The translations under genes were made by a program, and so were the position numbers. A stretch of 64,000 bases of DNA from a virus. The notes beneath the pieces are model-generated. The model saw nothing but the letters and a program-made list of their open reading frames with translations, made no database searches and had not been told where the DNA came from. The stretch's first letter is position 1; each line of letters opens with the position of its first letter. The stretch lies in the IMG/VR virus record IMGVR_UViG_3300025133_000077, positions 1 through 64,000 of that record. One strand, written 5' to 3'. Positions 26,628-63,272 of the stretch are shown here, one piece after another.

Positions 26628-26633
26628 TATGCT
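26628..26633 (+). promoter_or_regulatory. Leaderless -10 box (TATGCT) of the HNH gene
   Basis: TATGCT ends 7 nt before the ATG at 26640 (spacer GGCGCC), the geometry of a leaderless transcript that starts on the A of ATG. It lies in a short AT-rich gap (26600-26630) with no good -35 box and no ribosome site. The same TAYGMT-N6-RTG layout is found at 48257 and 63243. Confidence 0.5.
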
Positions 26634-26639
26634 GGCGCC

Positions 26640-27209
26640 ATGAAGAGATTCTCGGACCGTTTGAAGGAGAAGGGCGTCGTAATGCGCCCCGCCAGCGTCC
26701 CCAACCCCATCGTGCGCTCCGAGGAAGGCGTGTGGGTGATCGTAGAGGCCCGGGACAGGTCAGAGCGCTGCCGCTTCCTCGTAGACGAGGACGTCTATGC
26801 CGCGCTGGTGGCTCCCCACAGGTGGAACGTGGGGGGCGTAGAGCGCAACCGCGTCTACCACTCGGGGCGCACGCCCTCCGGCAACTCCACGGTGCTGCTG
26901 GCAAGGTTCATCTTCGACCCGCCCGCAGACCGCGAGGTCGACCACATCAACGGTGATCCCCTGGACAATCGCTACGAGAACCTGCGGGTCGCGACCCGCA
27001 AGCAGAACGAGGAGAACCGCCATGTGTCGCGGGGCAAGAGCAAGTACCGCGGCGTGCACCCCTGCAAGCAGACGGGACGATGGAGGGCCCAGGTGACCCA
27101 CAACTACACGGCGCACAAGAGCCCTCGCTTCGACACCGAGGAAGAGGCTCGTGCATGGGCAGTCGCAAAGCGGGACGAGCTGTTCACCCACCACCGGCAG
27201 TCCTCATGA
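26640..27209 (+). CDS. HNH homing endonuclease with AP2 domain
   Basis: 189 residues. The HNH core is VDHINGDPLDNRYENLRVAT (~101-120), with DH, the catalytic His and the Asn. An AP2-type DNA-binding domain follows (KYRGVHPCKQTGRWRAQV, ~135-152). This HNH-AP2 order is typical of free-standing phage homing endonucleases. It sits directly after the DNA polymerase, a favoured target for such mobile genes, and has its own leaderless-type promoter; both suggest a later insertion. It would cut unoccupied alleles of related phages. Confidence 0.9.
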   Translation: MKRFSDRLKEKGVVMRPASVPNPIVRSEEGVWVIVEARDRSERCRFLVDEDVYAALVAPHRWNVGGVERNRVYHSGRTPSGNSTVLLARFIFDPPADREVDHINGDPLDNRYENLRVATRKQNEENRHVSRGKSKYRGVHPCKQTGRWRAQVTHNYTAHKSPRFDTEEEARAWAVAKRDELFTHHRQSS

Positions 27210-27538
27210 CCGAGCCCCTCATCAAGTGGCAGAGCTGGGAGGTCGTCGGTGTGGAGGTCTTCCTCTGGGCCGACGACCTCCCGGAACACACCAACCCGCT
27301 CACGGACCTCCCCACCATCACCGAGGAGGAGGGCATCAAGGAGGGCGACTACGTCATCGTCGGGAGCATCCTCGGGTGGGTCAAGGCGAGGATCTACAGC
27401 GGGGAGGGGAGCCTGTACGCCAAGAGCGACACCGGCTCCATGATGTACTTCCTGGAGTTCGCCAAGGACGCTCGAAAGTGCTGGGTCTGCATCGGCTCCG
27501 GCAACCTCGCGGCCATCAAGAAGCTGGAGCTGAAGTGA
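27206..27538 (+). CDS. Hypothetical protein after the HNH gene
   Basis: 110 residues; ATG 27206 overlaps the HNH stop. Beta-rich pattern (WEVVGVEVFLWADDLPEH, GDYVIVGSILGWVKARIYS) with one CWVC pair near the C-terminus. No family recognised. It overlaps the HU gene start by 4 bases. Confidence 0.6.
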   Translation: MTEPLIKWQSWEVVGVEVFLWADDLPEHTNPLTDLPTITEEEGIKEGDYVIVGSILGWVKARIYSGEGSLYAKSDTGSMMYFLEFAKDARKCWVCIGSGNLAAIKKLELK

Positions 27539-27828
27539 CGAAGACGGAGCTGATCGAGAGGGTCGCCGAGAACCTGGACATGGGGGGCAACAAAGCCCTG
27601 AAGAAGGGCCTAGTGGCCGACGTTCTGGGGTGTATACTCGACGAGGTCGAGGGCGCGATGCGGGACAAGATCGAAGTGAAGATCGAGGGCTTCGGCACCC
27701 TGAAGCCCGTGTTCCACGCAGAGCGCTCACAGCACAACATCCAGACAGGCAGGACGGTCGTCCGAGAGGCTGGCTACAGCCTCCGCTTCCGTCCCGCCAA
27801 GCGCCTCAAGCAGGCGTTGAAGGAGTGA
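27535..27828 (+). CDS. HU/IHF-family DNA-binding protein
   Basis: 97 residues from GTG 27535. The helical N-terminus (TKTELIERVAENLD) and the arm region IEGFGTLKPVFHAERSQHNI, with TGRTVVREAGYSLRFRPAK, match HU/IHF (GFGxF ... NPQTG...F.pgK.lk). Length is normal for the family. It would bend or compact phage DNA, or assist replication or recombination. A GTGA overlap couples it to the preceding gene. Confidence 0.88.
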   Translation: MTKTELIERVAENLDMGGNKALKKGLVADVLGCILDEVEGAMRDKIEVKIEGFGTLKPVFHAERSQHNIQTGRTVVREAGYSLRFRPAKRLKQALKE

Positions 27829-27830
27829 TC

Positions 27831-28004
27831 GTGGAGAAGTACGGCGTCGTGACCGAGAAGCCCAAGCCCGGCGAGAAGACCGCGGCCCGCAACGACCAGG
27901 AGAGGCGCGGCTCGAACGTGCCCATCTCCGACTCCCAGGGCACGAAGCCCTGGGAACCCAAGAGCCCTCCGCCGCTGAAGAAGCCGGCGACCCCCAACAA
28001 GTAG
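27831..28004 (+). CDS. Small Pro/Lys-rich hypothetical protein
   Basis: 57 residues from GTG 27831 (AAGGAG 5 nt upstream); a GTG at 27825 overlapping the HU stop is possible. Composition is Pro, Lys and Gly (EKPKPGEK, KSPPPLKKPATPNK), so mostly disordered. No function assigned. Confidence 0.45.
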   Translation: MEKYGVVTEKPKPGEKTAARNDQERRGSNVPISDSQGTKPWEPKSPPPLKKPATPNK

Positions 28005-28030
28005 ACCTCCTCTCCTGAGGAGCCAGAGAC

Positions 28031-28049
28031 GGGCCTGTGACGCAGGCTC
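28031..28049 (+). terminator. Weak hairpin upstream of recA
   Basis: GGGCCTG, loop TGACG, CAGGCTC: a 7-bp stem with one G-U pair (8 with C28030-G28050) in the 58-nt gap before recA. There is no T tract. It may be a weak terminator, an RNA-stability element or chance. Confidence 0.3.
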
Positions 28050-28062
28050 GAAGGAACCCCCT

Positions 28063-29274
28063 ATGGCCAAACGAAAGACCGCGACCCGCGGCCCCACCCG
28101 CAAGGAGCGCCTCGAGGCGTTCGAGAAGCACGTCGGCAAGGAGTACAAGGGCAAGGGCCTGCTGATGAACGGGGACGAGTACGAGGCGCCCTTCATGGTG
28201 CGCCGGATCCCCACCGGCATCCTGGAGCTCGACCTCGCCCTGAACGGCGGCTTCCCCTGTGGCGGCGTCTCCGAGATCATCGGAGCCGAGTCCTCGGGCA
28301 AGACCACCCTGCTCAACCAGGTGTTCCGGTACCAGCAGCAGATCCTCGGTGACGAGGCCGCCCTCGCCATCGGCATGACCGAGCAGCCCTTCGACAGAGG
28401 CCACGCCAAGTTCAACTGCGGCGTCGACGTCGCCATCCACCCGAAGGAGATCGACGCCATCGAGGCCACGCTGAAGCGGAAGCTCACCAAGGAGGAACGG
28501 ACCGCGCTGGGCAGCCAGACGGGCTACTTCAAGGAGCTGGTCGCCGGCACCGTCGAAGCGCTGTACGACATGCTCCTCGACGCCGTCGCGTCCAAGGCGT
28601 TCCACGTCATCGGCCTGGACTCCTGGGGCTCCATCCTCACCGAGGCGGAGCACGACTCCACCATGCAGGACAAGAAGTACGCCGGCGGCGGCGGGGCCAG
28701 CGTCAACGCCTCCTGGGCTCGGCGCCTCTCCCCCGAGTTCGTCATCCCCAAGGACGGGGAGCGCAACTACACCGCGCTGATCGGGATCAACCAGTACCGC
28801 GTGAAGATGAACGCCAACCCCAAGGCCGGGGCCATGAAGCAGATGAGCGTGCAGGGCGGCTACGCCCTCAAGCACATCAAGCTGGTCTCGATCTTCCTGG
28901 AGTCGTTCGATCTCACCGAGGAGGTCCGCGGCCGGCGCACCACCGTCGGCAAGCGCGTCAAGTGGACCGTGATGAAGGGGAAGGCCGGCTGCCACGACGG
29001 ACACAAGGGCGAGTACGAGATCCGCTACGGCCTCGGCATCGATGTGCTCCGCGAGCACCTGATGGCGGGCCTGCTCCGCGGGGTCGTGGCCAACAAGGGG
29101 GCCTGGTACTACCTGCTGGACCCTGATGACGGCACGGAGGTCTTGAAGGCCTGCGGCAAGGACGCCTTCCTCGACCTGCTCAAGAACGAAGACGGAGCCC
29201 TGGAGTGGCTCCGCGACGCCGTCATCGACTACGAGGTCCGCGAGAACGGCGCCTCCTTCATCCCACCTCGATGA
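28063..29274 (+). CDS. recA: RecA-like recombinase
   Basis: 403 residues. Walker A GAESSGKT (~74-81), Walker B HVIGLDSWGSI (~179-189), a Gly-rich loop followed by NASWARRLS, and INQYRVKMNANPK around the L1/L2 region. It is in the size range of RecA/UvsX proteins but lacks an obvious C-terminal acidic tail. It would form filaments on single-stranded DNA and pair strands for recombination-dependent replication. The surrounding genes (nucleases, resolvases, UvsY-like protein) fit this role. The gene ends by ATGA overlap. Confidence 0.93.
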   Translation: MAKRKTATRGPTRKERLEAFEKHVGKEYKGKGLLMNGDEYEAPFMVRRIPTGILELDLALNGGFPCGGVSEIIGAESSGKTTLLNQVFRYQQQILGDEAALAIGMTEQPFDRGHAKFNCGVDVAIHPKEIDAIEATLKRKLTKEERTALGSQTGYFKELVAGTVEALYDMLLDAVASKAFHVIGLDSWGSILTEAEHDSTMQDKKYAGGGGASVNASWARRLSPEFVIPKDGERNYTALIGINQYRVKMNANPKAGAMKQMSVQGGYALKHIKLVSIFLESFDLTEEVRGRRTTVGKRVKWTVMKGKAGCHDGHKGEYEIRYGLGIDVLREHLMAGLLRGVVANKGAWYYLLDPDDGTEVLKACGKDAFLDLLKNEDGALEWLRDAVIDYEVRENGASFIPPR

Positions 29275-29483
29275 TCCTCGCTGCTGTAGCGATCATCTCT
29301 GTCTCTGCCGTGATCGGGTTCCTTCTCGGAACCCACCTGCTCGGTCAGCGACGGCGCAGGGTGCCCCTCAACGACAGCGGCTACGGAAGGCCCTGCCCTG
29401 TCTGCGGGGCGGGGCCTACCACTCTGTGCCGCGAAGACGGCGCCACGCTCCTGTGGGAGATGCACGAGAGGAGAGCAGGATGA
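29271..29483 (+). CDS. Small membrane protein with Cys motif
   Basis: 70 residues. One N-terminal membrane segment (ILAAVAIISVSAVIGFLLG, ~2-20), a basic stretch (QRRRR), then CPVCGAGPTTLC, a half zinc ribbon. The ATG at 29271 overlaps the recA stop. Function unknown. Confidence 0.6.
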   Translation: MILAAVAIISVSAVIGFLLGTHLLGQRRRRVPLNDSGYGRPCPVCGAGPTTLCREDGATLLWEMHERRAG

Positions 29484-29911
29484 GGCTCTACTTGCGAGTC
29501 GCCGGAGGAGACTGGTTCTCTGGCTTCGCCGTAGTCGACATCGGCGCGGAGTACCTCAACACGCTTCGGCGCCGGCTGCAGCGCATCCAGCAGATGCACG
29601 AGCAGGACTCCGAGGCGTACCGGCACGTCTACTGGGACGGCTCCCCCGACATCTTCGAGGGAGACCCCTTCGAGGGCCAAGCGCCGCAGGCACAGGCCGA
29701 GCTGCAGATGAACTGCGTCGACGCCTACGGAGGCGTCTACTGGAAGTGGGTCATCAAGCACACCAATCGCGATCTGTACACCGAGATCCTGAAGCTGCCC
29801 CAGATCGAAGAGGCCCTGGCCGACGGAGGGTTCTGGGTCAGCCCGGAGCTGCAAGATCTGTGGCTGGAAGACGGGATAAGCGAGGCAACACCCACCATGG
29901 AGAAGCACTGA
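29480..29911 (+). CDS. Hypothetical protein (143 aa)
   Basis: Starts at ATG 29480, overlapping the previous stop. Mixed alpha/beta with a helical segment (YLNTLRRRLQRIQQMHEQD) and several Trp (YWKWV, LWLED). No family recognised. It ends on the start of the HAD phosphatase gene (TGATG). Confidence 0.6.
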   Translation: MRLYLRVAGGDWFSGFAVVDIGAEYLNTLRRRLQRIQQMHEQDSEAYRHVYWDGSPDIFEGDPFEGQAPQAQAELQMNCVDAYGGVYWKWVIKHTNRDLYTEILKLPQIEEALADGGFWVSPELQDLWLEDGISEATPTMEKH

Positions 29912-30441
29912 TGCACCCGATCACCAACACGGACCTGCTGGTCCTTGACCTCGACCAGACGGTCCGAGGGAACGCTGTCGCCAACTGGCGCCCGCCCAAC
30001 GACACCGGCGAGCAGTTCATCTACCCCGGCGTCGCTCAGGTCCTCGCGACCTACGTGGACTCCGGCGTCACGGTGAAGTTCGCCACCAACCAGGGCGGCA
30101 TCGAGGCGGGGCACATCACCCGCATGAAGACCGAGGAGATCCTGGAGGAGACGATGGATCTCCTCAACAAGGAGATCGGTCGGGAGATCTTCGACCTCGA
30201 CGACGTGGCGTACTGCCCCGCCGTCAACCGCAACCACCCCAACCGGAAGCCCAACCCCGGCATGCTCGACGGCTGGGCCAAGTACGAAGGGATCGGGAAA
30301 TCCGATGAGGCGCGGCTGCGGTGCACGTACATCGGGGACCGCAACTCCGACCAGCAGGCCGCCCACAACGCGGGGTTCGAGTTCATGTGGGCCTGGGACT
30401 TCTTCGAGAACGTCCCCGAGCGCCCGGAGAACAAGCGATGA
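29911..30441 (+). CDS. HAD-superfamily phosphatase (PNK 3'-phosphatase-like)
   Basis: 176 residues. HAD motifs: I LLVLDLDQTVRG (~9-20, DxDxT), II KFATNQGGI (T in TNQ), III RKPNPGM (Lys), IV YIGDRNSDQQAAHNAG (GDxxxD). The TNQGGI and KPNPGM forms are shared with the 3'-phosphatase of polynucleotide kinases and with histidinol phosphatases. A DNA or RNA 3'-end repair role is likely in this block of recombination genes; no kinase domain is attached. Confidence 0.82.
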   Translation: MHPITNTDLLVLDLDQTVRGNAVANWRPPNDTGEQFIYPGVAQVLATYVDSGVTVKFATNQGGIEAGHITRMKTEEILEETMDLLNKEIGREIFDLDDVAYCPAVNRNHPNRKPNPGMLDGWAKYEGIGKSDEARLRCTYIGDRNSDQQAAHNAGFEFMWAWDFFENVPERPENKR

Positions 30442-30623
30442 GCACCCTGACGGTGAGCTTCAAGACGCCGGACGCCTTGGATGACGCCCTGGAGGGCCTG
30501 GAAGAGGGCTCCCTGGAACGAGAGAAGGCCGAGGCAGTGGCCGAGATCTTCATCAAGTACGGGGAGTACGTCACCATCGAGATCGACGTCGAGGCCAGCA
30601 CCGCACGGGTGGTGAGGGCGTGA
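30438..30623 (+). CDS. Small hypothetical protein (61 aa)
   Basis: Alpha-beta protein: FKTPDALDDALEGLEE, then a helix and EYVTIEIDVEASTARVVRA. The ATG overlaps the HAD gene stop and its own stop overlaps the next GTG. No family recognised. Confidence 0.55.
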   Translation: MSTLTVSFKTPDALDDALEGLEEGSLEREKAEAVAEIFIKYGEYVTIEIDVEASTARVVRA

Positions 30624-31120
30624 AGGACTGCCCCAGCTGCGGGTCGAACTCCTGGAAGCCCTTCTTGGGGCAGGACCGCAAGCTCCAGTGCCGGAGCTGC
30701 GAGAGGGTCTTCCCCAAGAAGGATCTGAAGACCAAGGAGAAGAAGCGCAGCCACGGGCGAGGAGCAGCCAGGCAGCGGATCCGCCGGAGCAGGAACAACG
30801 AGTTCCGGCGGGCCGCTGCCATCGGCGGGGAAGTCACCCCTGGTTCCGGCAACCGAGGAGCCTTGTCCGTGGGCGCCGACGTGTTCCTGAAATCTGTCCT
30901 CCGCGAGGAGGATAAGGAGACCGAGGCCTCGAGCTACTCGATCAAGTTCGCCGAGCTGATGAAGGTCGAGCGGCAGGCCAAGGCGAATGGCGAGCTCCCC
31001 GCTCTGCGGTTCATGTTCCTTAGGGATCGCCAGCGGCATCCCTACATCGTGCTGCGCGAAGAAGACTTCGATCAGCTGCTGACTCTGCTTAGGAGAGAAG
31101 TTGAAGATCCACACTCTTGA
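30620..31120 (+). CDS. Zinc-ribbon protein with Holliday-resolvase-like C-terminus
   Basis: 166 residues from GTG 30620. An N-terminal ribbon (CPSCG, CRSCE, residues ~4-28), a basic linker, and a C-terminal ~90 residues with ASSYSIKFAELMKVERQA and ALRFMF..YIVL resembling small PD-(D/E)XK resolvases. The catalytic pair is not clearly in place, so the enzyme could be diverged. It would bind or cut DNA junctions. The next gene starts at a TTG inside it. Confidence 0.5.
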   Translation: MKDCPSCGSNSWKPFLGQDRKLQCRSCERVFPKKDLKTKEKKRSHGRGAARQRIRRSRNNEFRRAAAIGGEVTPGSGNRGALSVGADVFLKSVLREEDKETEASSYSIKFAELMKVERQAKANGELPALRFMFLRDRQRHPYIVLREEDFDQLLTLLRREVEDPHS

Positions 31121-31931
31121 CGACCTGAAGAGGGCGGGCGAAGCCGTGGCGATGGGGGTCTTCAAGACCTTCTCGTTCCGCAACGACCTGCTCAAGTACA
31201 TGCGGGAGCACCGCAACCGGCGGAGCGGGGACCGGACGACCAAGGAGTTCTTCTGCCACCCCTGTGAGGGCACGGGAACCCTCAAGGAGCGCCCGCGCTC
31301 CGTCGACGTGCTGCACCCGTCCAGCTTCGGTCCCTACGGCTGCCACCAGCGGCTCTGGTACGACTTGCACGGCGTCATCGAGGAGGTCAGCTGCTTCGAC
31401 CCGGAGCTGCTGCTCATCTTCGATGTGGGCCACTCCCTGCACGGGATGCTGCAGACCTACGCCCACCGGATGTACGGGGACGCCTTCGAGGACGAGGTGC
31501 GGACGAAGGACAGGCTCGGGCTGATCAGCGGCTCCACGGACGGCCTCTGGACCTTCCCGAGGATGCGGATCATCTGGGAGATCAAGACCATCAACCGGAA
31601 GGGGTTCGAGGGCCTGTCCAAGCCGAAGCCGGAGCACATCTGGCAGGCGATGACCTACGCCCGCCTGAACAACGTCCCCTTCATCCTCTTCACCTACATC
31701 TGCAAGGACAACTCCCAGATCGTCGAGTACTACGTCCTCTACGACGAGGAGATCTGGCAGAAGGTCAACGCCTTCATCACCGCCGTCATCGAGTGCGACT
31801 CGGATGACGGACCTGGCGCGACCACCGCCCTGGGCAAGCCGGTGAACAAGTTCGCCTGCAAGAGCTGCGGCTACCGCAGCGAATGCGTCGTCAGCAAGTA
31901 CCAGCCGCCGAGGAGGAGGAAGCAGCGATGA
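31101..31931 (+). CDS. Cas4/RecB-like PD-(D/E)XK nuclease
   Basis: 276 residues. Motifs: FDVGHSLHGMLQTY (~113), GSTDGLW then IIWEIKTIN (ExK, ~155), and PEHIWQAMTYARL (~175-187, QxxxY). Cysteines near the start (CHPCEG) and end (CKSCGYRSEC) could bind a 4Fe-4S cluster as in Cas4 and AddB-type nucleases. The start is a TTG at 31101 with AGGAG 5 nt upstream. It probably resects DNA ends for RecA. Confidence 0.82.
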   Translation: MKIHTLDDLKRAGEAVAMGVFKTFSFRNDLLKYMREHRNRRSGDRTTKEFFCHPCEGTGTLKERPRSVDVLHPSSFGPYGCHQRLWYDLHGVIEEVSCFDPELLLIFDVGHSLHGMLQTYAHRMYGDAFEDEVRTKDRLGLISGSTDGLWTFPRMRIIWEIKTINRKGFEGLSKPKPEHIWQAMTYARLNNVPFILFTYICKDNSQIVEYYVLYDEEIWQKVNAFITAVIECDSDDGPGATTALGKPVNKFACKSCGYRSECVVSKYQPPRRRKQR

Positions 31932-32506
31932 CCGGACGAAGCCGCGGGCGCCGTCGCCTGAAGGCGGACATGGAAGAGAAGCACGAGAAGGCCGCCGAGC
32001 TGTACGCGAAGGCGTACGACGAGGGGGTGGAGGAGCTCATGGGCAAGGGAGTGGATCTGTCCGTGGAGCCGCCCGAGCTGGACTTCGACGGCTCCATCCC
32101 CACCAACCTGCCCGACCTGGACTCCCGAGAGCTGGGAGACCTGCTGGGCCAGTGCACCGAGTGGTTCAACTACGTCTCGCGGCTGATGGCTCTCGTCGAC
32201 GCCCGCAAGACCACCCTGGAGCAGGCGCTCAAGGCCGCGGAGGCCGAGGTCCGCCGAGAGCTGACGCGTGACGCAGAGACCAAGAAGTACGAGAAGGACG
32301 ACGCCGTCCGCCTCGACGTCCGGGTGGTCAGCCTGCGCTACGAGTTCCTGCGGGCCGAGGTCCAGCACATCCTGCTGTACCGCAGCATCGTCCCCACATC
32401 GGAGAAGGCGTACGCCGCCGTCAGCCGAGAGGTGAGCCGTCGGGACCAGGAGCAGCACCAGCACAACCGCACGGGCGCCGTGGGGCGGCGCAGGAAGGGA
32501 CGCTGA
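31928..32506 (+). CDS. Helical protein, UvsY-like recombination mediator candidate
   Basis: 192 residues, entirely helical and charged after a basic start (RSRGRRRLKAD). The central and C-terminal part (QALKAAEAEVRRELTRDAETKKYEKDDA, then RLDVRVVSLRYEFLRAEVQHIL) resembles the heptad pattern of T4 UvsY, including the KYEK stretch, by eye only. UvsY loads UvsX onto ssDNA covered by gp32. The context (RecA, nuclease, resolvase) supports this, but the match is weak and another DNA-binding helix bundle is possible. The ATG overlaps the nuclease stop. Confidence 0.4.
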   Translation: MTGRSRGRRRLKADMEEKHEKAAELYAKAYDEGVEELMGKGVDLSVEPPELDFDGSIPTNLPDLDSRELGDLLGQCTEWFNYVSRLMALVDARKTTLEQALKAAEAEVRRELTRDAETKKYEKDDAVRLDVRVVSLRYEFLRAEVQHILLYRSIVPTSEKAYAAVSREVSRRDQEQHQHNRTGAVGRRRKGR

Positions 32507-33090
32507 TGCCCGAGCTGCTGGTCGTCTACCCCGAGCTCCCCCTGACATCGAACCACGCCTACGCCACGGTGCGCGGAGACATGCGCGTGCTCAAGACGGA
32601 GGGGAAGCGGTGGAAGCGAAAGTTCCACGACTTCCTGTGGGAGAAGTATGGAGTGGCCCTGGACGAGCTGCTTACGTCTGCCGGCGACACCCAATGGTTG
32701 CTGGTCTCCTACCACTTCTTCTTCCCCTCCCTCGTGAACGCGGCCTTCATGGAGCGGCACAAGACCTCCCTGCCGGAGAGGCCGGGGAAGCGGGGGAAGA
32801 AGAAGATCACCCTGCCTGCTCAAGTGAAGGGGGAGCGGAAGACCCAGGTGCGCTTCAAGAAGCTCGACGCGAGCAACCGCCTGAAGCTCGTCGAGGACGC
32901 CCTGTCCGAGTCCCTCGACTTCGACGACAGCCGATTCCAGCTGGGGCCCGTGCTCAAGTACATGGACCCCGACAACCCGCGAACCGAGCTGCTGATTGAA
33001 GTCGTCGATCCGGTCGACTTCGGTGTTCCAGAGGAGTACGTTCGTGATCCCTCAAGTGCCGTGCCCGGCTCACGGCACGTTCGCCGATAG
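32506..33090 (+). CDS. RusA-family Holliday junction resolvase
   Basis: 194 residues. The RusA signature is LDASNRLKLVEDALSESLDFDDSRF (~125-149): an Asp, DALS and DDS that match the D-x-DN-K...DAL...DD pattern of the metal-binding site. A basic RFKK precedes it. The C-terminus (~40 residues) is extra. It would resolve branched DNA before packaging. TGATG overlap with the previous gene. Confidence 0.8.
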   Translation: MPELLVVYPELPLTSNHAYATVRGDMRVLKTEGKRWKRKFHDFLWEKYGVALDELLTSAGDTQWLLVSYHFFFPSLVNAAFMERHKTSLPERPGKRGKKKITLPAQVKGERKTQVRFKKLDASNRLKLVEDALSESLDFDDSRFQLGPVLKYMDPDNPRTELLIEVVDPVDFGVPEEYVRDPSSAVPGSRHVRR

Positions 33091-33418
33091 CCAGGGCCGA
33101 ATCCGCTACGCCCGTTCCGAGTCCAGGGTCATCTGCTTGATGGAGCGCTACTCCGCATGCTCCGACTGCGAGCACAGGAACTTCTCCCTGCTGGTGCTGA
33201 AGGGCGACAGCGAGGTGTCCTGCCCCATCCTGGAACAGGTCCTGGACGGAACCACCTGCGATGATGACCCGGTGCGGATCGCCGACGTCCAACGCATTCG
33301 GAAAGGAGGTGCGATCGACAGCTCGAACGTCACCATCGCCGCCTGCAACTCTTCCCCCCTTCAATCCTGTGCTGGATGTGAGGTCCGAAGGACATGGCTC
33401 TGCTCGACGAAGAAATGA
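33044..33418 (+). CDS. Cys-rich hypothetical protein
   Basis: 124 residues from GTG 33044 (AGGAG 8 nt upstream; overlaps the end of the RusA gene by 47 bases). About ten cysteines in groups (CPAHG, CLMER..CSDCEH, VSCP, CNSSPLQSCAGC, LC). One or more zinc sites are likely. First of three successive Cys-rich genes. No family recognised. Confidence 0.55.
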   Translation: MIPQVPCPAHGTFADSQGRIRYARSESRVICLMERYSACSDCEHRNFSLLVLKGDSEVSCPILEQVLDGTTCDDDPVRIADVQRIRKGGAIDSSNVTIAACNSSPLQSCAGCEVRRTWLCSTKK

Positions 33419-33711
33419 ACCTCACCGAGCTCCTGGCCTGCGCGGAAGCGCAGCAGCTGGGGGTTCTCCGGAGGAGCATCCCCCGCAAGAGGCTCGAGAG
33501 GATCGTGGAAGGGGAGGAGTCCCCTCGCGACTCGGACGAGTGCTCCACCATGGACCTGCGCAAGGCCACCACTCGCTTCGTCGCCCGCTACCGGGACCGG
33601 ATCACCCTGCCGATTAGCGCCGGCGGGGTGGAGTGCAGCGGGGATTGCACGTCCCACGGCTGTCCCGCAGCCATCGCGATCAACTGCAACCACGACATCA
33701 AGCGGCGATGA
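33415..33711 (+). CDS. Cys-containing hypothetical protein
   Basis: 98 residues if ATG 33415 (ATGA overlap with the previous stop) is used; ATG 33394 would give 105. N-terminal helix (NLTELLACAEAQQLG) and a C-terminal group CSGDCTSHGC..C. Similar in style to the genes on both sides, which suggests a zinc-binding cassette. Function unknown. Confidence 0.55.
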   Translation: MNLTELLACAEAQQLGVLRRSIPRKRLERIVEGEESPRDSDECSTMDLRKATTRFVARYRDRITLPISAGGVECSGDCTSHGCPAAIAINCNHDIKRR

Positions 33712-34511: not shown

Positions 34512-34522
34512 CAGCCCGTCCA

Positions 34523-34804: not shown

Positions 34805-34806
34805 AG

Positions 34807-48254: not shown

Positions 48255-48262
48255 GCTACGCT
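48232..48262 (+). promoter_or_regulatory. Leaderless promoter of the lone plus-strand gene
   Basis: TTGCCG (48232-48237), a 19-nt spacer and TACGCT (48257-48262), then CCCGCC and the GTG at 48269. The -10 box ends 7 nt before the start, so the transcript would begin at the G of GTG. No ribosome site is present. Same layout as the HNH and 63236 genes. Confidence 0.55.
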
Positions 48263-48268
48263 CCCGCC

Positions 48269-48574
48269 GTGATCTTCACGACGATGCCGGAAGAGCAGCT
48301 GCTGGCCCTCACCGACGGCGAGGAGTGCATCCTGCAGGACGTAGACGACGCGGCGCGGGAGCGAGTCCGCTCCAAGCGCTGCCCGGAGTGCTCCCAGGGC
48401 GTGATGCCCGTCGTGGACCCAGACAAGCCGTTCGACAACCAGACCGCGGGCTTCCGGTACGTCGCCCGGTGCACCGCGTGCGGCTGCGTCTTCGATCCGG
48501 AGAGCGGGGTCATCCGCAAGATCGGCTGCTCCAGTCCCATCCTGCCTCCTACGACAGCACGAGTGGGAGGGTGA
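48269..48574 (+). CDS. Lone zinc-ribbon protein in the tail block
   Basis: 101 residues from GTG 48269. The ribbon CPECSQGVM ... CTACGCVF spans ~36-72. It is the only plus-strand gene between 34830 and 64000, lying in the gap between two tail genes and overlapping the 3' end of the 2140-residue gene by 26 bases. It has its own leaderless-type promoter, so its expression is independent of the surrounding tail operon. Function unknown; a regulator or host-takeover protein inserted later is one option. Confidence 0.65.
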   Translation: MIFTTMPEEQLLALTDGEECILQDVDDAARERVRSKRCPECSQGVMPVVDPDKPFDNQTAGFRYVARCTACGCVFDPESGVIRKIGCSSPILPPTTARVGG

Positions 48575-55902: not shown

Positions 55903-58645
55903 CGAAACCTCCTATTGCTCCTCGGGGCGGCTGGAAGAGCCTGGCAGCCTTCGTGAGCTTCTCCTCGGCCGAAGATGCCGAGGAAGCTCCCTCCATCCTC
56001 AGGGACGCCGCCACGTGGTACTTGCCTCGGACCAGCAGCGACCTGAACCGATCATACCCCCGCTCCTCCAGAGCAGACAGCTGAGCCTCCGCCTGCTCCT
56101 GGGTCTCCTCAGGCACCTCCGGCACCCACGACGTCAGCACGCTGAAGAGGGTGCCCGCAGGCGCTGCGGGCACCCGCAGGCCCAGTCGCTGCAGGGCTGC
56201 CGCCGGACCTTGGCCGGGCACCTCGCCGATCTGCATGGCAGCGGCGTACACCGTCCCCACTGCGTCGAGGAGCTGGTGGGTGGAGGCCGCTCCCTGGGAG
56301 GCGGCCTCCACCCGCTGCAGCGCAGCTTCCAGCTCCAACACCCACTTCCACAGGGGTCGCATCTGCAGCGCACGCAGCGCCACGCGCAGCTCCTCGAACT
56401 CGGTGGCCAGCGAGCTGAGCACCTCGAGGTCGGCGGAAGCAAGGACGCCCTCCCCGACCTCGAAGCTCCGGCGGTCCTTCGAGATGGCTGTGATCGAGTA
56501 CCTGTCCTCCCCGTTCGCCAGCCAGGCGCCCTTGAGGGCCTTGAGCACTCCCAGGTCCCGGACCGCCCGTCGCTTCTCCCCCGCGAGCCGGCCGTACACC
56601 TCGAAGGTGGTCGCGGTGCCGGGAGTGCTTCCAGAGACCAAGCCGAGCTGGGCGTGCGCCGTCCCGACGTCCACCTGGATGTGGCTCGCGAGGGAGTCGT
56701 CCAGCGACGTGAGCTGCAGCAGAGTGCGCTGCAAGGAGGACATGGTCTCCAGGTGGAGCGGGGCAAGTCTGTCGTGGAGCGGGGCCACGACCAACTCCTC
56801 GCCGACCAGAGAGGTCACGACGTAGAGCCCCACGTCGACGGCGTTGAGGATGTCCCCTGCCTGCGCCCTCGTAGCGTCGTTGGGCACCCACCTCGTCTGG
56901 GTGGAGAAGTGCCCTCTCCCGATGCCGCGCACGGACGTGGAGATCGACGCTTCCACCTCCGGGGAGGCGGACTCCGCCTCCTCCACCAGGGCCACCACGT
57001 TCTCCAGCGCGAAGTAGTCCGTGGACGCCTGGCCAGCGCCGAAGCCGAGTGCCAAGCGGTCACTGGCGGAGTAATCCGTCCACCCGAACCGGATCACTTC
57101 GGGAAAGTTGAGCGTCGCCGGATGAGCGGAGCTGAAGGGCAGCAGCAGCTCCAGGAAGGTGTTGGGTCCCGTGGCGATGGGCGCGCGGATCTCCAGCTTC
57201 CCGTCCACGACCTCCACCTCAAGGACGAAGTCGTTGCCCGGGAGGAGGTCGCCCGACACGAAGGGTGCCCACGCCAACATGGCGTCCACCACCTCCTGCA
57301 TCGACTCGTACGGGTTGCCCACGCCGTGCGGGGACGCCGGGAAGAGGATGGACCGCGGGAAGGCGTACAGGCCGGGCGGCAGCGGGGTGTCGGTGGCGGT
57401 GTGCACGTACGAGGCGAAGACGGACAGGGTCAGGCCTTCCAGGGCCATCGGGAACGTACCCTCCGCCTGGAGGTAGCTCTCCCGGACCACCTGTCCCGCG
57501 TCGCCCACGACCATGGGGTCGTCGTCGAGGAGCATCAGCTTGCCGAGGCTCCTCTTGGCGAGGCCCCCGTAGCGCTGCATGCCGCTGTTCAGCTCGTCGA
57601 GCACCTGCGCAGCGGTGCGCGGTCCCGTCGTGAGCGGTATGTCCCGCAGGAGGCCCTCGACCTCGACCAGAAGCACCCCTTCGACGACCTCGTAGGTCTC
57701 TCCGGGGATCTCGGCCTCCACCCTGTGCTGCCCGGCGCCCACCAGTTCGATGGTGCGCTGTGCCTTCCCGTTGGGGGTGTAGATCAGCGTCGCTCCGACG
57801 GGAAGGGCGTCCGGCGACCGAGAACCGATCACCGTCGCCGGCAGCAGCGGAGGGAGGGCCCGTACCTCGAGGGAGGACTTCGGGGGGAACGCGTCCGAGA
57901 CGAGGGGGGATAGAGGGTGCCGGGCCCCGCGCAAGGCCTTCATGGTGGCGGGGACGGTGAGGAGCTTCAGCACCTCCTCCTGTCGCTGCGCCAGGACGTT
58001 TCCCTCTTCGGTGCGCTGCTTGTGCGCGCGCAGCAGGGCCTCCGCTCGGGCCATGACCGCGGGCCCCACCGCCCGCTGCAGGGTGTTGACGTTGAACCAG
58101 TCGGCGGCCTCGCTGAACTCCTTCAGCCCTCTCTGCAGCTTGGTCCAGGAGGCCCGGGCCTCTGCCAGCGGAGCGGTGAGGTCGGCCTGGGCCTCCGCCC
58201 TGGAACGTGCAGAGACGTCGGCGCGGTCTCTCGGCGAGAGCAGCCCGGACCCCATGACGTAGCGGGTGATGTCCTGTGCCGCGAACGCAGCAGCCTCTGA
58301 GGACAGGGGATCCGGAACGTCGCGGCCCAGCGCCTTCAAGGCGCGAGAGAGGCCCGAGGCATCGGGGTTGGGAGGGTCGGGGAGCCGCAAGTCCGCCGTG
58401 GCCGTGATGATCTCAGCCAGTGCCGACAGAAGAGAGGCTGCCTCCTGCAGCAGCAGGTTGCGCTGCAGCACTCGATGATGGAAGAAGACGTCGGAGTGCA
58501 GGAGCAGCCCGGTCATCACCTCCCCGTGCAGGAGGCGGAACTGGTCTCGCGTGCTGCGAAGACCCATCCCCGTTCGAGGAGTTCCCTTCGACGGAGAGAC
58601 CAGGGCTCCGGCCGCCGGCGCGGTGATGTTCATTGCCTTGGACAT
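55895..58645 (-). CDS. Large tail/baseplate protein (916 aa)
   Basis: 916 residues from ATG 58645, chosen because GGAGG lies 5 nt upstream; an ATG at 58660 is weaker. The first ~270 residues are helical (ALAEIITATADLRL, ARASWTKLQRGLKEFSEA), followed by beta domains including VDVGLYVVTSLVGEELVVAP, like the modules of the giant proteins, and a helical end (~780-890, EEFEELRVALRAL-type). No enzymatic motif. The first ~230 bases overlap the end of another reading frame, see the next entry. Structural role inferred from context. Confidence 0.6.
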   Translation of the reverse strand: MSKAMNITAPAAGALVSPSKGTPRTGMGLRSTRDQFRLLHGEVMTGLLLHSDVFFHHRVLQRNLLLQEAASLLSALAEIITATADLRLPDPPNPDASGLSRALKALGRDVPDPLSSEAAAFAAQDITRYVMGSGLLSPRDRADVSARSRAEAQADLTAPLAEARASWTKLQRGLKEFSEAADWFNVNTLQRAVGPAVMARAEALLRAHKQRTEEGNVLAQRQEEVLKLLTVPATMKALRGARHPLSPLVSDAFPPKSSLEVRALPPLLPATVIGSRSPDALPVGATLIYTPNGKAQRTIELVGAGQHRVEAEIPGETYEVVEGVLLVEVEGLLRDIPLTTGPRTAAQVLDELNSGMQRYGGLAKRSLGKLMLLDDDPMVVGDAGQVVRESYLQAEGTFPMALEGLTLSVFASYVHTATDTPLPPGLYAFPRSILFPASPHGVGNPYESMQEVVDAMLAWAPFVSGDLLPGNDFVLEVEVVDGKLEIRAPIATGPNTFLELLLPFSSAHPATLNFPEVIRFGWTDYSASDRLALGFGAGQASTDYFALENVVALVEEAESASPEVEASISTSVRGIGRGHFSTQTRWVPNDATRAQAGDILNAVDVGLYVVTSLVGEELVVAPLHDRLAPLHLETMSSLQRTLLQLTSLDDSLASHIQVDVGTAHAQLGLVSGSTPGTATTFEVYGRLAGEKRRAVRDLGVLKALKGAWLANGEDRYSITAISKDRRSFEVGEGVLASADLEVLSSLATEFEELRVALRALQMRPLWKWVLELEAALQRVEAASQGAASTHQLLDAVGTVYAAAMQIGEVPGQGPAAALQRLGLRVPAAPAGTLFSVLTSWVPEVPEETQEQAEAQLSALEERGYDRFRSLLVRGKYHVAASLRMEGASSASSAEEKLTKAARLFQPPRGAIGGFGG

Positions 58646-58931
58646 GCCGCCTCCGATCATTGTGCAGCTTCAGCTGCCTCAGCTCCGCCGCCGTCAGGAC
58701 CAACACCTTCTGGCGCAACCGCTCCGGGTCTACGTCTACCAGAGCGCAGAGGGCCTCGAAGGAGTTCGAGCGCCCGGAGTGATCCTCGAACAACCACCAC
58801 TGGGCGTTGAAGAAGAGCCTCCGCTCGTGCACACGCGTCCGGCCCCGGTTGATGACGTAGTCGATGATCCCCTGCAGGATCACCGCCGTCCAGAGGTTCA
58901 GGTGCGGACCCGTGTCGGGGGCCCCGTTCAT
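58413..58931 (-). CDS. Hypothetical protein with long overlap into the next gene
   Basis: 172 residues from ATG 58931 (ATGA overlap with the preceding gene). Residues 1-95 look genuine (LNLWTAVILQGIIDYVINRG, AQWWLFEDHSGRSNSFEALC, DVDPERLRQKVLVLTAAEL), a helical domain seen in small phage proteins that end in a DPxxLR helix. From about residue 100 the frame runs 233 bases into the 916-residue gene, and its composition (Arg, Gly, Ala, Pro, Ser) is that of an out-of-frame reading. So the annotated stop may be correct with an overlap, or a frameshift may end or extend it. Confidence 0.5.
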   Translation of the reverse strand: MNGAPDTGPHLNLWTAVILQGIIDYVINRGRTRVHERRLFFNAQWWLFEDHSGRSNSFEALCALVDVDPERLRQKVLVLTAAELRQLKLHNDRRRHVQGNEHHRAGGRSPGLSVEGNSSNGDGSSQHARPVPPPARGGDDRAAPALRRLLPSSSAAAQPAAAGGSLSSVGTG

Positions 58932-60139
58932 GCGACGGACACCGTCACCGGCGTCACCGTCAGAACCACGGCGGGCACCCGCGGCATGAACGCCCTGAGG
59001 ATGGGGGTCGCCACGATCGTGGCTGAGCCGACGCCGACGCCGATCACCCTGAGGTTGTCGCCGGAAGACTCCACCTCGATCACGTCGGTGTCGCTGGAGG
59101 TGAACTCGACGAAGGTGGTCGATGCAGGGTTCGAGCTGGGGAGGATGATCCGGCCATCCGACATCACCAAGGTCGGAGCCACCAGGACTTCTCCGCCCAC
59201 CGCCAGAGCCAGTGGCCCGGCAGGCGCGTACGTCACCGTGTCCGGTGCCGGGAAGAGCAGGTTGACCGTGTTGGCCTGGGCCTGTGAGGGGATCTCGATG
59301 TCCACCGAGGAGTCGAGGTACCCGGCCGCCGTGACGGAGAAGATGCCTCCCCGCGGCAGGTCCACCTCGAAGTACCCGTTCTTGTCGGTGACGAGCTCGA
59401 CCGGGGCCTGCGAGTACCCCACTGCGCCCGGGTACAGAGCCACCGGGTTCCTCTGCGGGGTCAGGCGGAGGTAGAGGCCGGAGACCGCCCTCCCTGCCGG
59501 ATCCACGAAGAAGCCCCAGCAGCGGCACAGGCTGGGGTTTGGCGACACCGGCGCCGTGAACGTCTCAGCGACGAACTGCCAGAGGTTGCTGGGGGGCGGC
59601 ACCCTCACGTTGATCTGTCTGGGGGAGGGCACGCTGGCGAGGATGTGGTCGCCGTAGAAGCGGAGCTGGTACCGCGCGACCGGCAAGGTGAAGTCGACCT
59701 CGCCGGCGGCGTCGGTGTAGCCCGTGGCGAGGAGCTCCGTCCCCGCCTGGTCGTAGACCTGGACCCCCATGTTCTCCACCGGGAGCCCATCCTTGTCGAC
59801 CACCTGCACCTCGGCCACGTAGCCCGGCGCCCCGATGGGGATGGGCGGGCTGACGCTGACCGGGAAGACCGCGAAGGATTCGACGGAGGAGTAGGGCGAG
59901 CCGCTGTAGAGGTAGGCCCACTCGAGCGTGAAGTCGCCGGCCCCCGTCGGCGTCCAGCTGACCGTGTACGTGCCCAGGGAGGGGTGCAGCACCGGCACCG
60001 GGGTCGCAACGACGTTGCCCAGCGAGTCCTTGACCTGCGCCGTCGGCGCCGCGTCAGCGTCCACCAGGTAGTCCCCGCCCGTGGTGGACAGGGTGATGAT
60101 CATCGTGAACTCGGACGCGATGCCGACGAAGTGCGCCAT
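58928..60139 (-). CDS. Ig-like/BIg2 tail protein (403 aa)
   Basis: 403 residues from ATG 60139; the frame continues upstream, but the sequence there lies over the previous gene. The N-terminal half has repeated beta sandwiches with carboxypeptidase-regulatory-like pieces (GLPVENMGVQVYDQAG, GYTDAAGEVDFTLPVARY, NGYFEVDLPRGGIFSVTAAGY). The C-terminal ~90 residues are BIg2-like (LALAVGGEVLVAP, FTSSDTDVIEVES, GVGVGSATIVAT). Such domains in phage particles bind carbohydrate or extend fibres. No catalytic motif. Confidence 0.65.
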   Translation of the reverse strand: MAHFVGIASEFTMIITLSTTGGDYLVDADAAPTAQVKDSLGNVVATPVPVLHPSLGTYTVSWTPTGAGDFTLEWAYLYSGSPYSSVESFAVFPVSVSPPIPIGAPGYVAEVQVVDKDGLPVENMGVQVYDQAGTELLATGYTDAAGEVDFTLPVARYQLRFYGDHILASVPSPRQINVRVPPPSNLWQFVAETFTAPVSPNPSLCRCWGFFVDPAGRAVSGLYLRLTPQRNPVALYPGAVGYSQAPVELVTDKNGYFEVDLPRGGIFSVTAAGYLDSSVDIEIPSQAQANTVNLLFPAPDTVTYAPAGPLALAVGGEVLVAPTLVMSDGRIILPSSNPASTTFVEFTSSDTDVIEVESSGDNLRVIGVGVGSATIVATPILRAFMPRVPAVVLTVTPVTVSVA

Positions 60140-60141
60140 GC

Positions 60142-60801
60142 TCAGGCTCCCAGGGACCGAGAGGTGTGCCGGGTCTGGATCGCCCCCTCCACCCCGTAGG
60201 CGTAGAACGACTGGGAGGAGTCCCACCCATCGATGGAGCAGGAGAAGGAGAGGTAGTACCAGCCCACCGCCGTCGGCACGTAGTCGACCTCGAAGACCCG
60301 CTGATGGCCCGAGGGCACCGTGGCCTCGAGCAGCGTCAGGTCCGTCCAGGTGCTCTCCCCGGCCTTCCGCACCTTGCCGTCCACGGTGACCGCGCCGGCG
60401 GGCACGGTGTACGACACCTTGTAGGCCGTGCCGACCGGGACTCGTACGGCCTCCATGCCGCGCCCGATGGCCATGCCCGCCACGTCCACCGAGGGCAGCC
60501 CTGCACCTGCACCGGAGGCGTCGAACTCGATGACCTGCAGGTCACCGATCAGAATGACCAGGACCTCGATCTTCCAGTAGCCCGCGGCGTCGGGAGTGAA
60601 CTCGGCCTCGTACTCGCCGGGAGTGCCGGCGATCTCCGCCACGGTCACGGCGTTCGGGCCCGCGTAGACCGCGCCGTCCTTCCAGACGGTGACCGTGAAG
60701 TCCGCCGGGAGAGCCAGCCCCGGGAGCTTGGTGAGGCCGTCCAGATCGAGAGCAGGGAACTGCTCTCGGAAGACTTCACCTACGGTCGCGGAGCGCGCCA
60801 C
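60142..60801 (-). CDS. Ig-like tail protein (219 aa)
   Basis: 219 residues, all beta, with two sandwich-like halves: LPADFTVTVWKDGAVYAGP, EYEAEFTPDAAGYWKIEV and KVSYTVPAGAVTVDGKV, FEVDYVPTAVGWYYLSFS. The GWYYLSF and YWKIEV strands are Ig-fold edges. It ends just before the start of the 403-residue Ig-like gene, so the two likely form one adhesive structure. Confidence 0.6.
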   Translation of the reverse strand: MARSATVGEVFREQFPALDLDGLTKLPGLALPADFTVTVWKDGAVYAGPNAVTVAEIAGTPGEYEAEFTPDAAGYWKIEVLVILIGDLQVIEFDASGAGAGLPSVDVAGMAIGRGMEAVRVPVGTAYKVSYTVPAGAVTVDGKVRKAGESTWTDLTLLEATVPSGHQRVFEVDYVPTAVGWYYLSFSCSIDGWDSSQSFYAYGVEGAIQTRHTSRSLGA

Positions 60802-61116
60802 CTACGACTCCTCCCCCTCGCCGAGAGGGAACACCACGGCGGTCTTGCCGCCGTCGGTGGTCAGCATGACGCCCTGCTGCGGAGGCGGGGGCTGTGCCAG
60901 CACGCTGTCGAGCTTGTCGCGAAGCGCCCGGAGGAACGAGGGACGGCACCTCAGCCGGGAGACCACCCGGGCCTCTTGGGCCTGCGGGGAGAAGACCGCG
61001 AGATCCAGGAGCACCTCATCGTCGCCGTCCGGCAGGAGGCGAACGGCGTTGACGTACTCCCCGAACCGGAGCTCGGGGTCAACGATGATCTCGGGAACGG
61101 CCACCTCAGTGCTCAT
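60802..61116 (-). CDS. Small hypothetical tail-block protein
   Basis: 104 residues from ATG 61116, overlapping the previous stop. Beta start (VAVPEIIVDPELRFGEYV), helical middle (LRALRDKLDSVLAQPPPP) and a beta end (GKTAVVFPLGEG). No family recognised. Confidence 0.55.
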   Translation of the reverse strand: MSTEVAVPEIIVDPELRFGEYVNAVRLLPDGDDEVLLDLAVFSPQAQEARVVSRLRCRPSFLRALRDKLDSVLAQPPPPQQGVMLTTDGGKTAVVFPLGEGEES

Positions 61117-61499
61117 GCGGAACGCTCCAGGAAGAGCACAGCGGAGTCGATGATGTAGCACGCCGAGGAGGAGATCAGGCTCCAGCAGAGCATCGCCGGA
61201 ATGAGGGAGTAGGGCTGTCCGGAGTAGAGCAGACGCTCCCCCGACAGGAGCCAGACCAGGAGCCAGCTCATCCAGCCGGTGTGGAAGCCCATGCAGTAGG
61301 GGCAGGAGAAGAGCTTCGTGACGAAGGCTCGCACGGCTCCTCTCCAGCGGGAGTTGCTGAACCCCAGCGGGGCCTCCTCATCTGCCTCAGGGAGATGTCC
61401 GAGCCGCAGGAGCCAGAGCACCGGGAAGACCTTCGTCGCCTTGTTCATGGCCCCGAAGCAGAGGCCGTAGGACAGCAGCAGAGCCAGAGCGTAGATCAC
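61113..61499 (-). CDS. Membrane protein, DUF1360-like
   Basis: 128 residues from GTG 61499 (GTGA overlap). Three or four hydrophobic segments, with FSCPYCMGFHTGWMSWLLVWLL in the middle matching the CPxC...W signature of DUF1360 phage membrane proteins. An alternative reading from 61667 gives a basic, implausible start. Role unknown; in other phages members are encoded near lysis or tail genes. Confidence 0.65.
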   Translation of the reverse strand: MIYALALLLSYGLCFGAMNKATKVFPVLWLLRLGHLPEADEEAPLGFSNSRWRGAVRAFVTKLFSCPYCMGFHTGWMSWLLVWLLSGERLLYSGQPYSLIPAMLCWSLISSSACYIIDSAVLFLERSA

Positions 61500-61840
61500 C
61501 GAGAGCTCCTCTTGCGGATCAGCTTGGGCACGCCGGCCTCCTTGGGCCTGGCGCTGGGCTTCTTGCCGCTGGCCAACAGGTTGTCGGCGCGACAGCAGTT
61601 GTCCTTCGCCGCCTTCTGGAAGATGCCGATGTCGTCGGGGATCCCGTCCCCGTCTTCGTCGACGCACTCCATGACGATGTTCACAGGGTACTGATCCAGC
61701 GCCTCCGCGAGCAAGTCCCGCTCCAGCCGCCCCTTGGCGTCGATCGGCCCCGAGGAGTACTCGCGGTCCAACCGAATGAGACGCCGTACAGCGTCTCCGA
61801 GCCCCAGGGTGACCTTCTTGGTGAACCGATCTGCCGCCAT
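61496..61840 (-). CDS. Hypothetical protein (114 aa)
   Basis: Helical and charged (GRLERDLLAEALDQYP), with an Asp-rich loop (VDEDGDGIPDDIG) that resembles an EF-hand or dockerin-type calcium loop, and a single CC pair. It ends by GTGA overlap with the membrane protein. No family recognised. Confidence 0.55.
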   Translation of the reverse strand: MAADRFTKKVTLGLGDAVRRLIRLDREYSSGPIDAKGRLERDLLAEALDQYPVNIVMECVDEDGDGIPDDIGIFQKAAKDNCCRADNLLASGKKPSARPKEAGVPKLIRKRSSR

Positions 61841-61857
61841 GCGCGCATCCTACAAGA

Positions 61858-61890
61858 AGGCCCCCGTCGCGCCTAGCACGACGGGGGCCT
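61858..61890 (-). terminator. Strong terminator after the virion protein gene
   Basis: On the minus strand AGGCCCCCGTCG, a 9-nt loop, CGACGGGGGCCT, then TTCTTGT: a 12-bp perfect stem with a U-rich tail. It ends the transcript of the gene at 61914-62447 and isolates it from the genes below. Confidence 0.85.
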
Positions 61891-61913
61891 CCTGTTCAGG
61901 CCTCAGCGGGGTA

Positions 61914-62447
61914 CTAGACCACGCCGATGAACTGCGGCATCCAGACGACCTTGGAGGTGCCAGCGCCGGTGCTGTGGGTGTAGCCCACGCGCCAGATCTG
62001 GTCTTCCGAGGTGGACGGGGCCGTCTCGCTGACGCCGCCGGACACCCAGTAGACCACGGCACCCTCGGTGCTCAGCGTCTCGGAGACCTCGTAGACCTCG
62101 CCCGGCGTGCAGTACACCGAGTCGGTGTCCGCCTCGGCCAGGAGTCCCGCGGGGAACTTGTGGCTGGACGGGTTCGCCGACACGAGCGCGCCGCCGACGT
62201 AGGTCACCATGGTCTTGGCGGCCACGGTGCCGATGGTCTTGCCGTGCGCGGCGCGGCTCTCCTTGACGCCGACCGACTCGATGAAGAGCGTGCCGGACGT
62301 CGCGGTGGCCAGGGTCAGGTCGCCGCTGGTGGCGGTGATGCTGATGTTCCCCGAGTTGGCGATCGTGCCCAGCGCCGAGAAGGAGCTGACGTCGCTCTCG
62401 ACGAAGTTGTACGTGATCGTGTCGTCGCCGCTGTGGGCGCTGGACAT
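61914..62447 (-). CDS. Virion protein, highly terminated small gene
   Basis: 177 residues of Thr/Ser/Ala/Gly-rich beta sequence (FSALGTIANSGNISITATSGDL, GEVYEVSETLSTEGAVVYWVSGG). Similar beta proteins serve as decoration, tube or fibre proteins. It is followed by the strongest terminator in the window, which suggests abundant expression. No ribosome site precedes ATG 62447, and an upstream frame runs into it (62315-62614), so its start is uncertain. Confidence 0.5.
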   Translation of the reverse strand: MSSAHSGDDTITYNFVESDVSSFSALGTIANSGNISITATSGDLTLATATSGTLFIESVGVKESRAAHGKTIGTVAAKTMVTYVGGALVSANPSSHKFPAGLLAEADTDSVYCTPGEVYEVSETLSTEGAVVYWVSGGVSETAPSTSEDQIWRVGYTHSTGAGTSKVVWMPQFIGVV

Positions 62448-62614
62448 CGCCGTGCCGCCCGCGCGGCCTCCTGAAGGCGCGATCCCTCTGCCTGCTCGTT
62501 CTCGAGCGCGGCGGAGATCTTCTTCTTGAACTTGACCTTCTTCTTGAGGCGAGTACGGCGGGGGTCGAGCTTCTTGGCGGTCATCTGGCTGGGTCCTCTG
62601 GCTTGGGGGGTCAT
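62315..62614 (-). CDS. Basic small protein overlapping the virion gene
   Basis: 99 residues from ATG 62614 (overlaps the previous stop). The first ~45 are coherent: Lys/Arg-rich (RRTRLKKKVKFKKKISAALENE). The remainder reads through the start of the 62447 gene in another frame and looks like out-of-frame sequence. The -1 frame is open upstream of ATG 62447 through the Lys-rich part, so a frameshift could fuse this N-terminus to the virion protein. Confidence 0.4.
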   Translation of the reverse strand: MTPQARGPSQMTAKKLDPRRTRLKKKVKFKKKISAALENEQAEGSRLQEAARAARRCPAPTAATTRSRTTSSRATSAPSRRWARSPTRGTSASPPPAAT

Positions 62615-62844
62615 CGCCTCTTGATGAGGTCGACGGTGTCTTGGTACTCCATGACGAATCTGCGGTAGTCGGAGTTCCGGTACTCGATCTCGTACTTCTT
62701 CCCTTCGTCGTCGGGCAGATCGAGGGTAACGCGCATCCGACGAGGCTGGTCAGGATCGCGCCCCACCGTCACCACGTCAACGCCCTTGCGCCGGATGTAG
62801 GCGAGGAGGAAGGCGTCTGAGGAACTGTACTGCTTCGCGCTCAC
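62611..62844 (-). CDS. Small hypothetical protein (77 aa)
   Basis: From GTG 62844, overlapping the previous stop. It has a helical start (SSSDAFLLAYIRRKG), a beta middle (RMRVTLDLPDDEGKKYEIEY) and an acidic helical end. It ends by ATGA overlap with the basic gene. No family recognised. Confidence 0.55.
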   Translation of the reverse strand: MSAKQYSSSDAFLLAYIRRKGVDVVTVGRDPDQPRRMRVTLDLPDDEGKKYEIEYRNSDYRRFVMEYQDTVDLIKRR

Positions 62845-63236
62845 GACAGAACAACCTCTCGCTCGACGGCGAAGCAGATCTCGGTGGCTGACGCCGCGTG
62901 GCCCAGACGCTGCTGGTGGCCGGCGACTGGAAGAGTCTCGGTGATGGCTCCCGGGATCGACGGGTCCGCCCACAAAGCCTCCCCCCGGGTCCACGACCAG
63001 GCGGGGTTCGTCACACTGTGGCCTTGCCTGCCTTCCACCAACACCCTGCCGCCTCCCAGCACCCGCTCCACTACCCCGATCGCCGGCATGAGGGCAGGGG
63101 TCATGGGGTCCGCCAGCGTCACTTGGCCGTCCACCGTGGGGTCCAGGCACACGAGGCTGTATGCCACCACTCCCGCGGCTGCGGCGTAGATTCTGGGAGA
63201 GTTCACTCTCCCCAGCAAGCTGAGAGACCGGGCCAT
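62841..63236 (-). CDS. DUF2190/decoration-type virion protein
   Basis: 131 residues of beta sequence: AAAAGVVAYSLVCLDP, VTLADPMTPALMPAIGVVERV, then RVLVEGRQGHSVTNPAW and LWADPSIPGAITETL. The order (A..G.V....A.A..P.IGV......G..V.V..G...) is that of small decoration proteins such as DUF2190. It has no ribosome site before ATG 63236, but a leaderless-type promoter instead. Role inferred. Confidence 0.55.
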   Translation of the reverse strand: MARSLSLLGRVNSPRIYAAAAGVVAYSLVCLDPTVDGQVTLADPMTPALMPAIGVVERVLGGGRVLVEGRQGHSVTNPAWSWTRGEALWADPSIPGAITETLPVAGHQQRLGHAASATEICFAVEREVVLS

Positions 63237-63242
63237 GACGAA

Positions 63243-63272
63243 ATCGTACTCGCAGGGAGGTAGGTAGGTCAG
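63243..63272 (-). promoter_or_regulatory. Leaderless promoter CTGACC-18-TACGAT
   Basis: On the minus strand CTGACC (63272-63267), an 18-nt spacer and TACGAT (63248-63243), then TTCGTC and the ATG at 63236. The box ends 7 nt before the start, so the mRNA begins at the A of ATG. The -35 box is one base from TTGACC, and the 18-nt spacer equals those of the RNAP and portal promoters. Confidence 0.6.

Follow-up and report, generated by a model that had tools for sequence, protein, structure and literature searches.

A TANNNT hexamer resembling a bacterial −10 element stands exactly six nucleotides before the start codon of four genes in a linear phage record of 74,702 bases (G000; the window analysed here comprises its bases 1-64000). 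At one of these, a lone zinc-ribbon gene inverted in the late gene block, the comparison of orthologues lends good support to a leaderless layout that has been conserved across about twenty related phages. The boxes are probably −10 elements read by the host RNA polymerase with its principal sigma factor, such that transcription would start on the start codon and yield a leaderless mRNA. We regard this as a real feature, namely a known promoter type, the TANNNT leaderless one, in a new setting.

TANNNT boxes at a six-nucleotide spacing

Three boxes had been described in the first-pass annotation, and each was found where it had been placed, exactly six nucleotides (N6) from its start codon: TATGCT-GGCGCC-ATG before an HNH endonuclease gene (box 26628-26633, ATG 26640, + strand), TACGCT-CCCGCC-GTG before the zinc-ribbon gene (box 48257-48262 in a 14-bp divergent gap, GTG 48269, + strand), and TACGAT-TTCGTC-ATG before a 131-aa gene (box 63248-63243, ATG 63236, − strand). 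A fourth box, unremarked until then, is TAGGAT-GCGCGC-ATG (61852-61847, ATG 61840, − strand); it is also SD-like (TAGGA, 7-nt spacing), hence ambiguous if taken alone. The base directly before the start codon, at −1, is C in all four sites. For the offset count, every in-frame ATG or GTG candidate near 66 called gene starts was taken, the start not being chosen by the motif. TANNNT is rare in this genome (69 copies in the 74.7-kb record, both strands counted), and the genome scan at −12 to −7 that had been proposed earlier as a check returned four cases at N6, none at any other offset from N0 to N20, and two at N21. The Poisson probability of an N6 count of four is about 2 × 10−6, uncorrected for the choice of motif.

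The literature describes a TANNNT placed about 12 nt ahead of the start codon as a sign of leaderless genes (PMC3160421), and at the sites found here the first T lies at this distance, with an SD sequence absent at three of them. The longest match to AGGAGGT amounts to 3 nt (26640), 1 nt (48269) and 3 nt (63236), compared with at least 4 nt in 43 of 65 genes of G000, which agrees with the earlier statement that these three genes lack ribosome sites, unlike most; the 61840 gene, with a 4-nt SD match, is ambiguous. This last site, where TAGGAT-N6 presents AGGA at standard spacing, speaks for leadered transcripts with weak ribosome sites, in which the hexamer would lie inside a longer 5′ leader or TAGGAT would be the ribosome site itself; we give that reading little credence, as TACGCT, TATGCT and TACGAT are not SD-like.

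Chance is another alternative to be weighed. AT-bearing hexamers might happen to precede start codons, with translation taking place from read-through mRNA, a very improbable explanation when all four cases in the N0-20 range fall at N6. In its favour, TAYGMT-N6-RTG also occurs within genes, twice in G000 (55201 and 46052, both − strand), so that the pattern alone is not diagnostic. Furthermore, nothing independent fixes the starts at 26640 and 63236. A caller based on codons and SD sequences chose 26682 and 63170 instead, although the alignments of some HNH homologues begin at residue 12-13 of the protein read from 26640, ahead of M15, the residue that corresponds to 26682. Because the pattern occurs within genes and the caller chose other starts, the boxes of the HNH and 63236 genes are to be seen, from sequence alone, as suggestive and not conclusive.

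The inverted zinc-ribbon gene across the clade

The zinc-ribbon gene (48269-48574, + strand; CPxC...CxxC), characterized by an alignment of 32 members and by gene order, belongs to an orthologous family that runs through a clade of phages whose RNA polymerase is a fused β-β′ chain, and the geometry of its box is conserved in this family. In nearly every record it is convergent with a long downstream gene, and in most it is divergent from the upstream gene. For 31 non-redundant members, TANNNT before in-frame ATG or GTG was counted against an expectation from shuffles: the hexamer lies exactly at N6 in 16 of the 31 (0.41 expected), at N5 in two and at N7 in three, which makes 21 of 31 for N5-N7, and in none at N0-N4 or N9-N11. 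As the members share ancestry, the 16 N6 cases do not represent 16 independent events. In the portal genes of the clade, which served as a control, TANNNT stands at N6 in 1 of 49, and other genes of the relatives show no general TANNNT excess at N6. The excess over the shuffled expectation, together with the orientation of a lone inverted gene that cannot receive read-through from neighbours on the opposite strand, means that chance is already disfavoured for the zinc-ribbon gene.

The class proposed in the first-pass annotation, TAYGMT, proved too narrow. Orthologous boxes such as TAGCCT, TAGCTT, TAGAGT, TAATGT, TACACT and TATGAT, found in the family next to TACGCT, TAGTGT, TACAAT, TAGGTT and TAAGGT, define the class as TANNNT, since the family keeps the T at −12, the A at −11 and the T at −7, while the inner triplet, the spacer and even the start codon vary. 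C occupies −1 in 11 of the 16 N6 promoters, and a C(−1) preference has been reported at mycobacterial starts (PMC4633059). The sequence GTCAAC, seen near several zinc-ribbon starts, was not enriched between genes and was discarded. In 10 of the 31 members the box is absent at N5-N7, at least five of these having an SD-like sequence instead, and the orthologues L240, L241, L245, L249 and L251 look leadered with an SD sequence. These exceptions favour leadered transcripts for some of the family; against extending that reading to G000 stand the 14-bp gap, which would make a zinc-ribbon leader begin inside the opposing gene, and the conserved T, A, T pattern, in which there is no purine run. The transcription start on the start codon, as proposed earlier from the geometry, is thus well supported at this gene by conservation throughout the clade.

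The function of the protein is a matter of guesswork. No Pfam or PHROG family was matched, and the predicted structure consists of two helices followed by a four-cysteine ribbon (AlphaFold mean pLDDT 79). Profile searches against solved structures gave weak matches; subunit RPA12 of RNA polymerase I ranks first among those related to transcription (E 0.014), such that the similarity to RPA12/Rpb9-type RNA polymerase zinc ribbons is a weak profile resemblance. Foldseek yielded no confident fold match for the model (E above 0.07), with zinc-ribbon subunits of RNA polymerase recurring at low probability. A role in transcription would be a guess on these grounds. Along these lines, one might speculate, as a rather unlikely proposal, that the clade keeps this inverted late-block gene on a leaderless promoter read by the host in order to have its product at once after infection, and that the product is a transcription factor whose target would be the host or the phage polymerase while transcription is handed over.

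Accessory genes with boxes of their own

Relatives were collected by searches with the DNA polymerase, RNA polymerase, portal and zinc-ribbon proteins, which returned two close ones, G001 (72 kb) and G002 (31 kb), and many distant ones. The HNH gene (26640-27209, + strand; HNH_3 with a weak AP2-like match, by Pfam and PHROG) lies downstream of DNA polymerase A; it is absent from both close relatives, where the DNA after the polymerase stop differs, the box included. Among HNH homologues of other phages no N6 excess was seen (3 of 59), a count that counts in favour of chance at this gene. The two boxes on the − strand at 61852 and 63248 are held by an accessory segment of seven genes (60142-63278, − strand) that is absent from G001, in which 269 nt separate the homologues of the genes on either side of it. 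It contains the 131-aa gene (62841-63236, − strand; PHROG 4368, which has no assigned function) and a 114-aa gene (61496-61840, − strand) that has no Pfam or PHROG family and is likewise absent from G001. The latter gene follows an 18-bp hairpin and a short T-rich stretch (61855-61893, − strand; fold −38.9 kcal/mol, z −4.7), which sit directly before the TAGGAT box, after the gene that ends at 61914, and which may form a terminator-like boundary after the preceding gene.

A comparison may be drawn with phage morons, accessory genes that carry their own promoter and terminator. As in morons and free-standing homing endonucleases, the HNH gene and the segment 60142-63278 are absent from close relatives, and the 61840 gene has a box of its own behind a terminator-like hairpin; unlike in morons, the promoter proposed here is leaderless. 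The HNH, 61840 and 63236 genes seem, we infer, to have brought their own promoter along. The earlier description of all three reported genes as isolated holds for the zinc-ribbon gene; the HNH and 63236 genes are co-directional within gene runs and are better called accessory. As they have no orthologues in close relatives, their boxes rest on the offset statistic of G000 and on uncertain starts, and a transcription start on the start codon, well supported at the zinc-ribbon gene, is for the HNH, 63236 and 61840 genes the best reading.

The polymerase proposed to read the boxes and its setting

In the mechanism preferred here, the TANNNT boxes would act as −10 elements of the sigma-A/sigma-70 type, recognized by the host holoenzyme. 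The six-base spacer would put +1 at the first base of the ATG or GTG, leaving no 5′ leader, and translation would proceed by direct initiation at the 5′-terminal start codon. Each gene could then be expressed singly, independent of neighbouring operons, and presumably ahead of the phage's fused RNA polymerase or in its absence. It can be rationalized that a leaderless promoter would suit both the zinc-ribbon gene, alone and inverted next to a divergent gap of 14 bp, and genes acquired as modules of their own, such as the HNH, 61840 and 63236 genes. No TTGACA-like −35 element was found 16-18 nt upstream (best 3-4 of 6 matches), and a consensus scan with a program that requires a −35 reported no sigma-70 promoters. 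In high-GC bacteria the −35 element is often weak, so its absence here lowers the probability that the boxes work as sigma-70/sigma-A promoters but does not exclude it.

The phage encodes a complete multisubunit RNA polymerase, with β and β′ fused in one chain of 2099 aa (4759-11058, − strand; NADFDGD present), the identity of which is 79% to that of G001, 57% to that of L124, and about 43% to those of G003, G004 and L122. In L122 and L123 (3001-11472) the match covers 8472 nt compared with about 6300, as if the gene carried an insertion of ≈ 2.2 kb, which raises the question of an intein or intron. The interval 1467-4769 (− strand) encodes a protein of 1100 aa that matches the InPase family and, more weakly, GNAT acetyltransferase and SET domains. 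The fused enzyme, and not that of the host, might be what reads TANNNT at a fixed distance from RTG starts, and, according to the summary in the AR9 study, the non-virion RNA polymerase of phiKZ uses a very short promoter, TATG, starting on its last base (PMC5312081). We consider such a reader improbable: TANNNT is a known bacterial leaderless signal, it is avoided within genes, it stands at N6 before only four genes of G000, and in many relatives it precedes the RNA polymerase gene, which would call for another polymerase unless the enzyme were injected. Among these RNA polymerase genes, a second control family from the clade, TANNNT is bimodal, at N6 in 4 of 47 and with a second group at N23-30, as expected of one −10 box in leaderless and leadered use. 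In several relatives among L151-L230 and L121-L125 the RNA polymerase gene has a TACGCT-type box (e.g. GCGGTACGCTG) whose distance from the start codon varies (N6, N10, N18, N27), as if one −10 were used both with and without a leader.

The avoidance was gauged by comparison with more distant positions of the same codon phase. Within genes, a T placed at the third base after TA reaches 0.63 of its expected frequency in G000 (z −3.6), 0.71 in G001, 0.75 in G002 and 0.53 in G008 (z −13). An A placed there is not depleted, and in G003 and G006 TANNNT is not avoided. This depletion would agree with TANNNT starting transcription in the host. A raw tenfold shortage of TANNNT relative to independent bases was rejected as a measure of promoter avoidance, as much of it reflects a general avoidance of TA and codon phase, TA-N0-T, TA-N6-T and TA-N9-T being low as well under synonymous-codon shuffling; only the phase-matched residue (0.63 in G000) was retained.

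As a candidate for a second promoter class, GGCATAAG is present in only two copies in the 74.7-kb genome (11133-11140 and 16373-16380, both + strand), located in divergent regions ≈ 30-40 nt upstream of + strand genes starting at 11177 and 16413, with a GCAAnnA-like element ≈ 15 nt before it. It is conserved in G001, and in G003 four of four occurrences are intergenic. The phiKZ late motif TATG was set aside, since both TTATG copies in G000 are accounted for by the reverse complement of GGCATAAG.

The leaderless TANNNT geometry is found in Actinobacteria and in Deinococcus-Thermus, beyond one phylum (PMC3160421; PMC4633059). "Actinobacterial", as the first-pass annotation had it, is therefore an analogy, and the shared geometry would not show that the host is actinobacterial. 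Portal matches in GTDB fall in MAGs of mixed phyla, including Deltaproteobacteria and Eisenbacteria, possibly through binning, and the closest cultured phages, ≈ 30% identical, infect Vibrio and Salmonella. The boxes share TANNNT, its spacing to RTG, the lack of an SD sequence and C at −1 with bacterial leaderless genes (PMC3160421; PMC4633059); unlike in those bacteria, where about a fifth of genes are concerned, the layout is found here at a handful of genes in a phage that encodes a multisubunit RNA polymerase, and is conserved at one orthologous phage gene. With the AR9/phiKZ group (PMC5312081) and the mReC Caudovirales (PMC7481178) the phage has in common a β + β′ RNA polymerase, and some promoters in those systems are very short and start near the box. 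On the other hand, AR9 late promoters are AACA-N6-TA/G and the phiKZ late one is TATG, whereas the type found here is the host-type TANNNT, and β and β′ are fused here in one 2099-aa protein; the likeness to mReC lies in the RNA polymerase domains. Among open-licence papers, no description was found of an RNA polymerase-encoding phage clade that keeps a leaderless inverted zinc-ribbon gene, which is weak evidence of novelty.

The comparison offers a demonstration, from genome sequences, that a probable leaderless promoter has been kept over long evolution at one phage gene, with the related genes that switched to leadered forms serving as natural controls. It also marks those genes of an RNA polymerase-encoding phage that probably rely on host transcription, a distinction not easily made by other means when a phage is uncultured.
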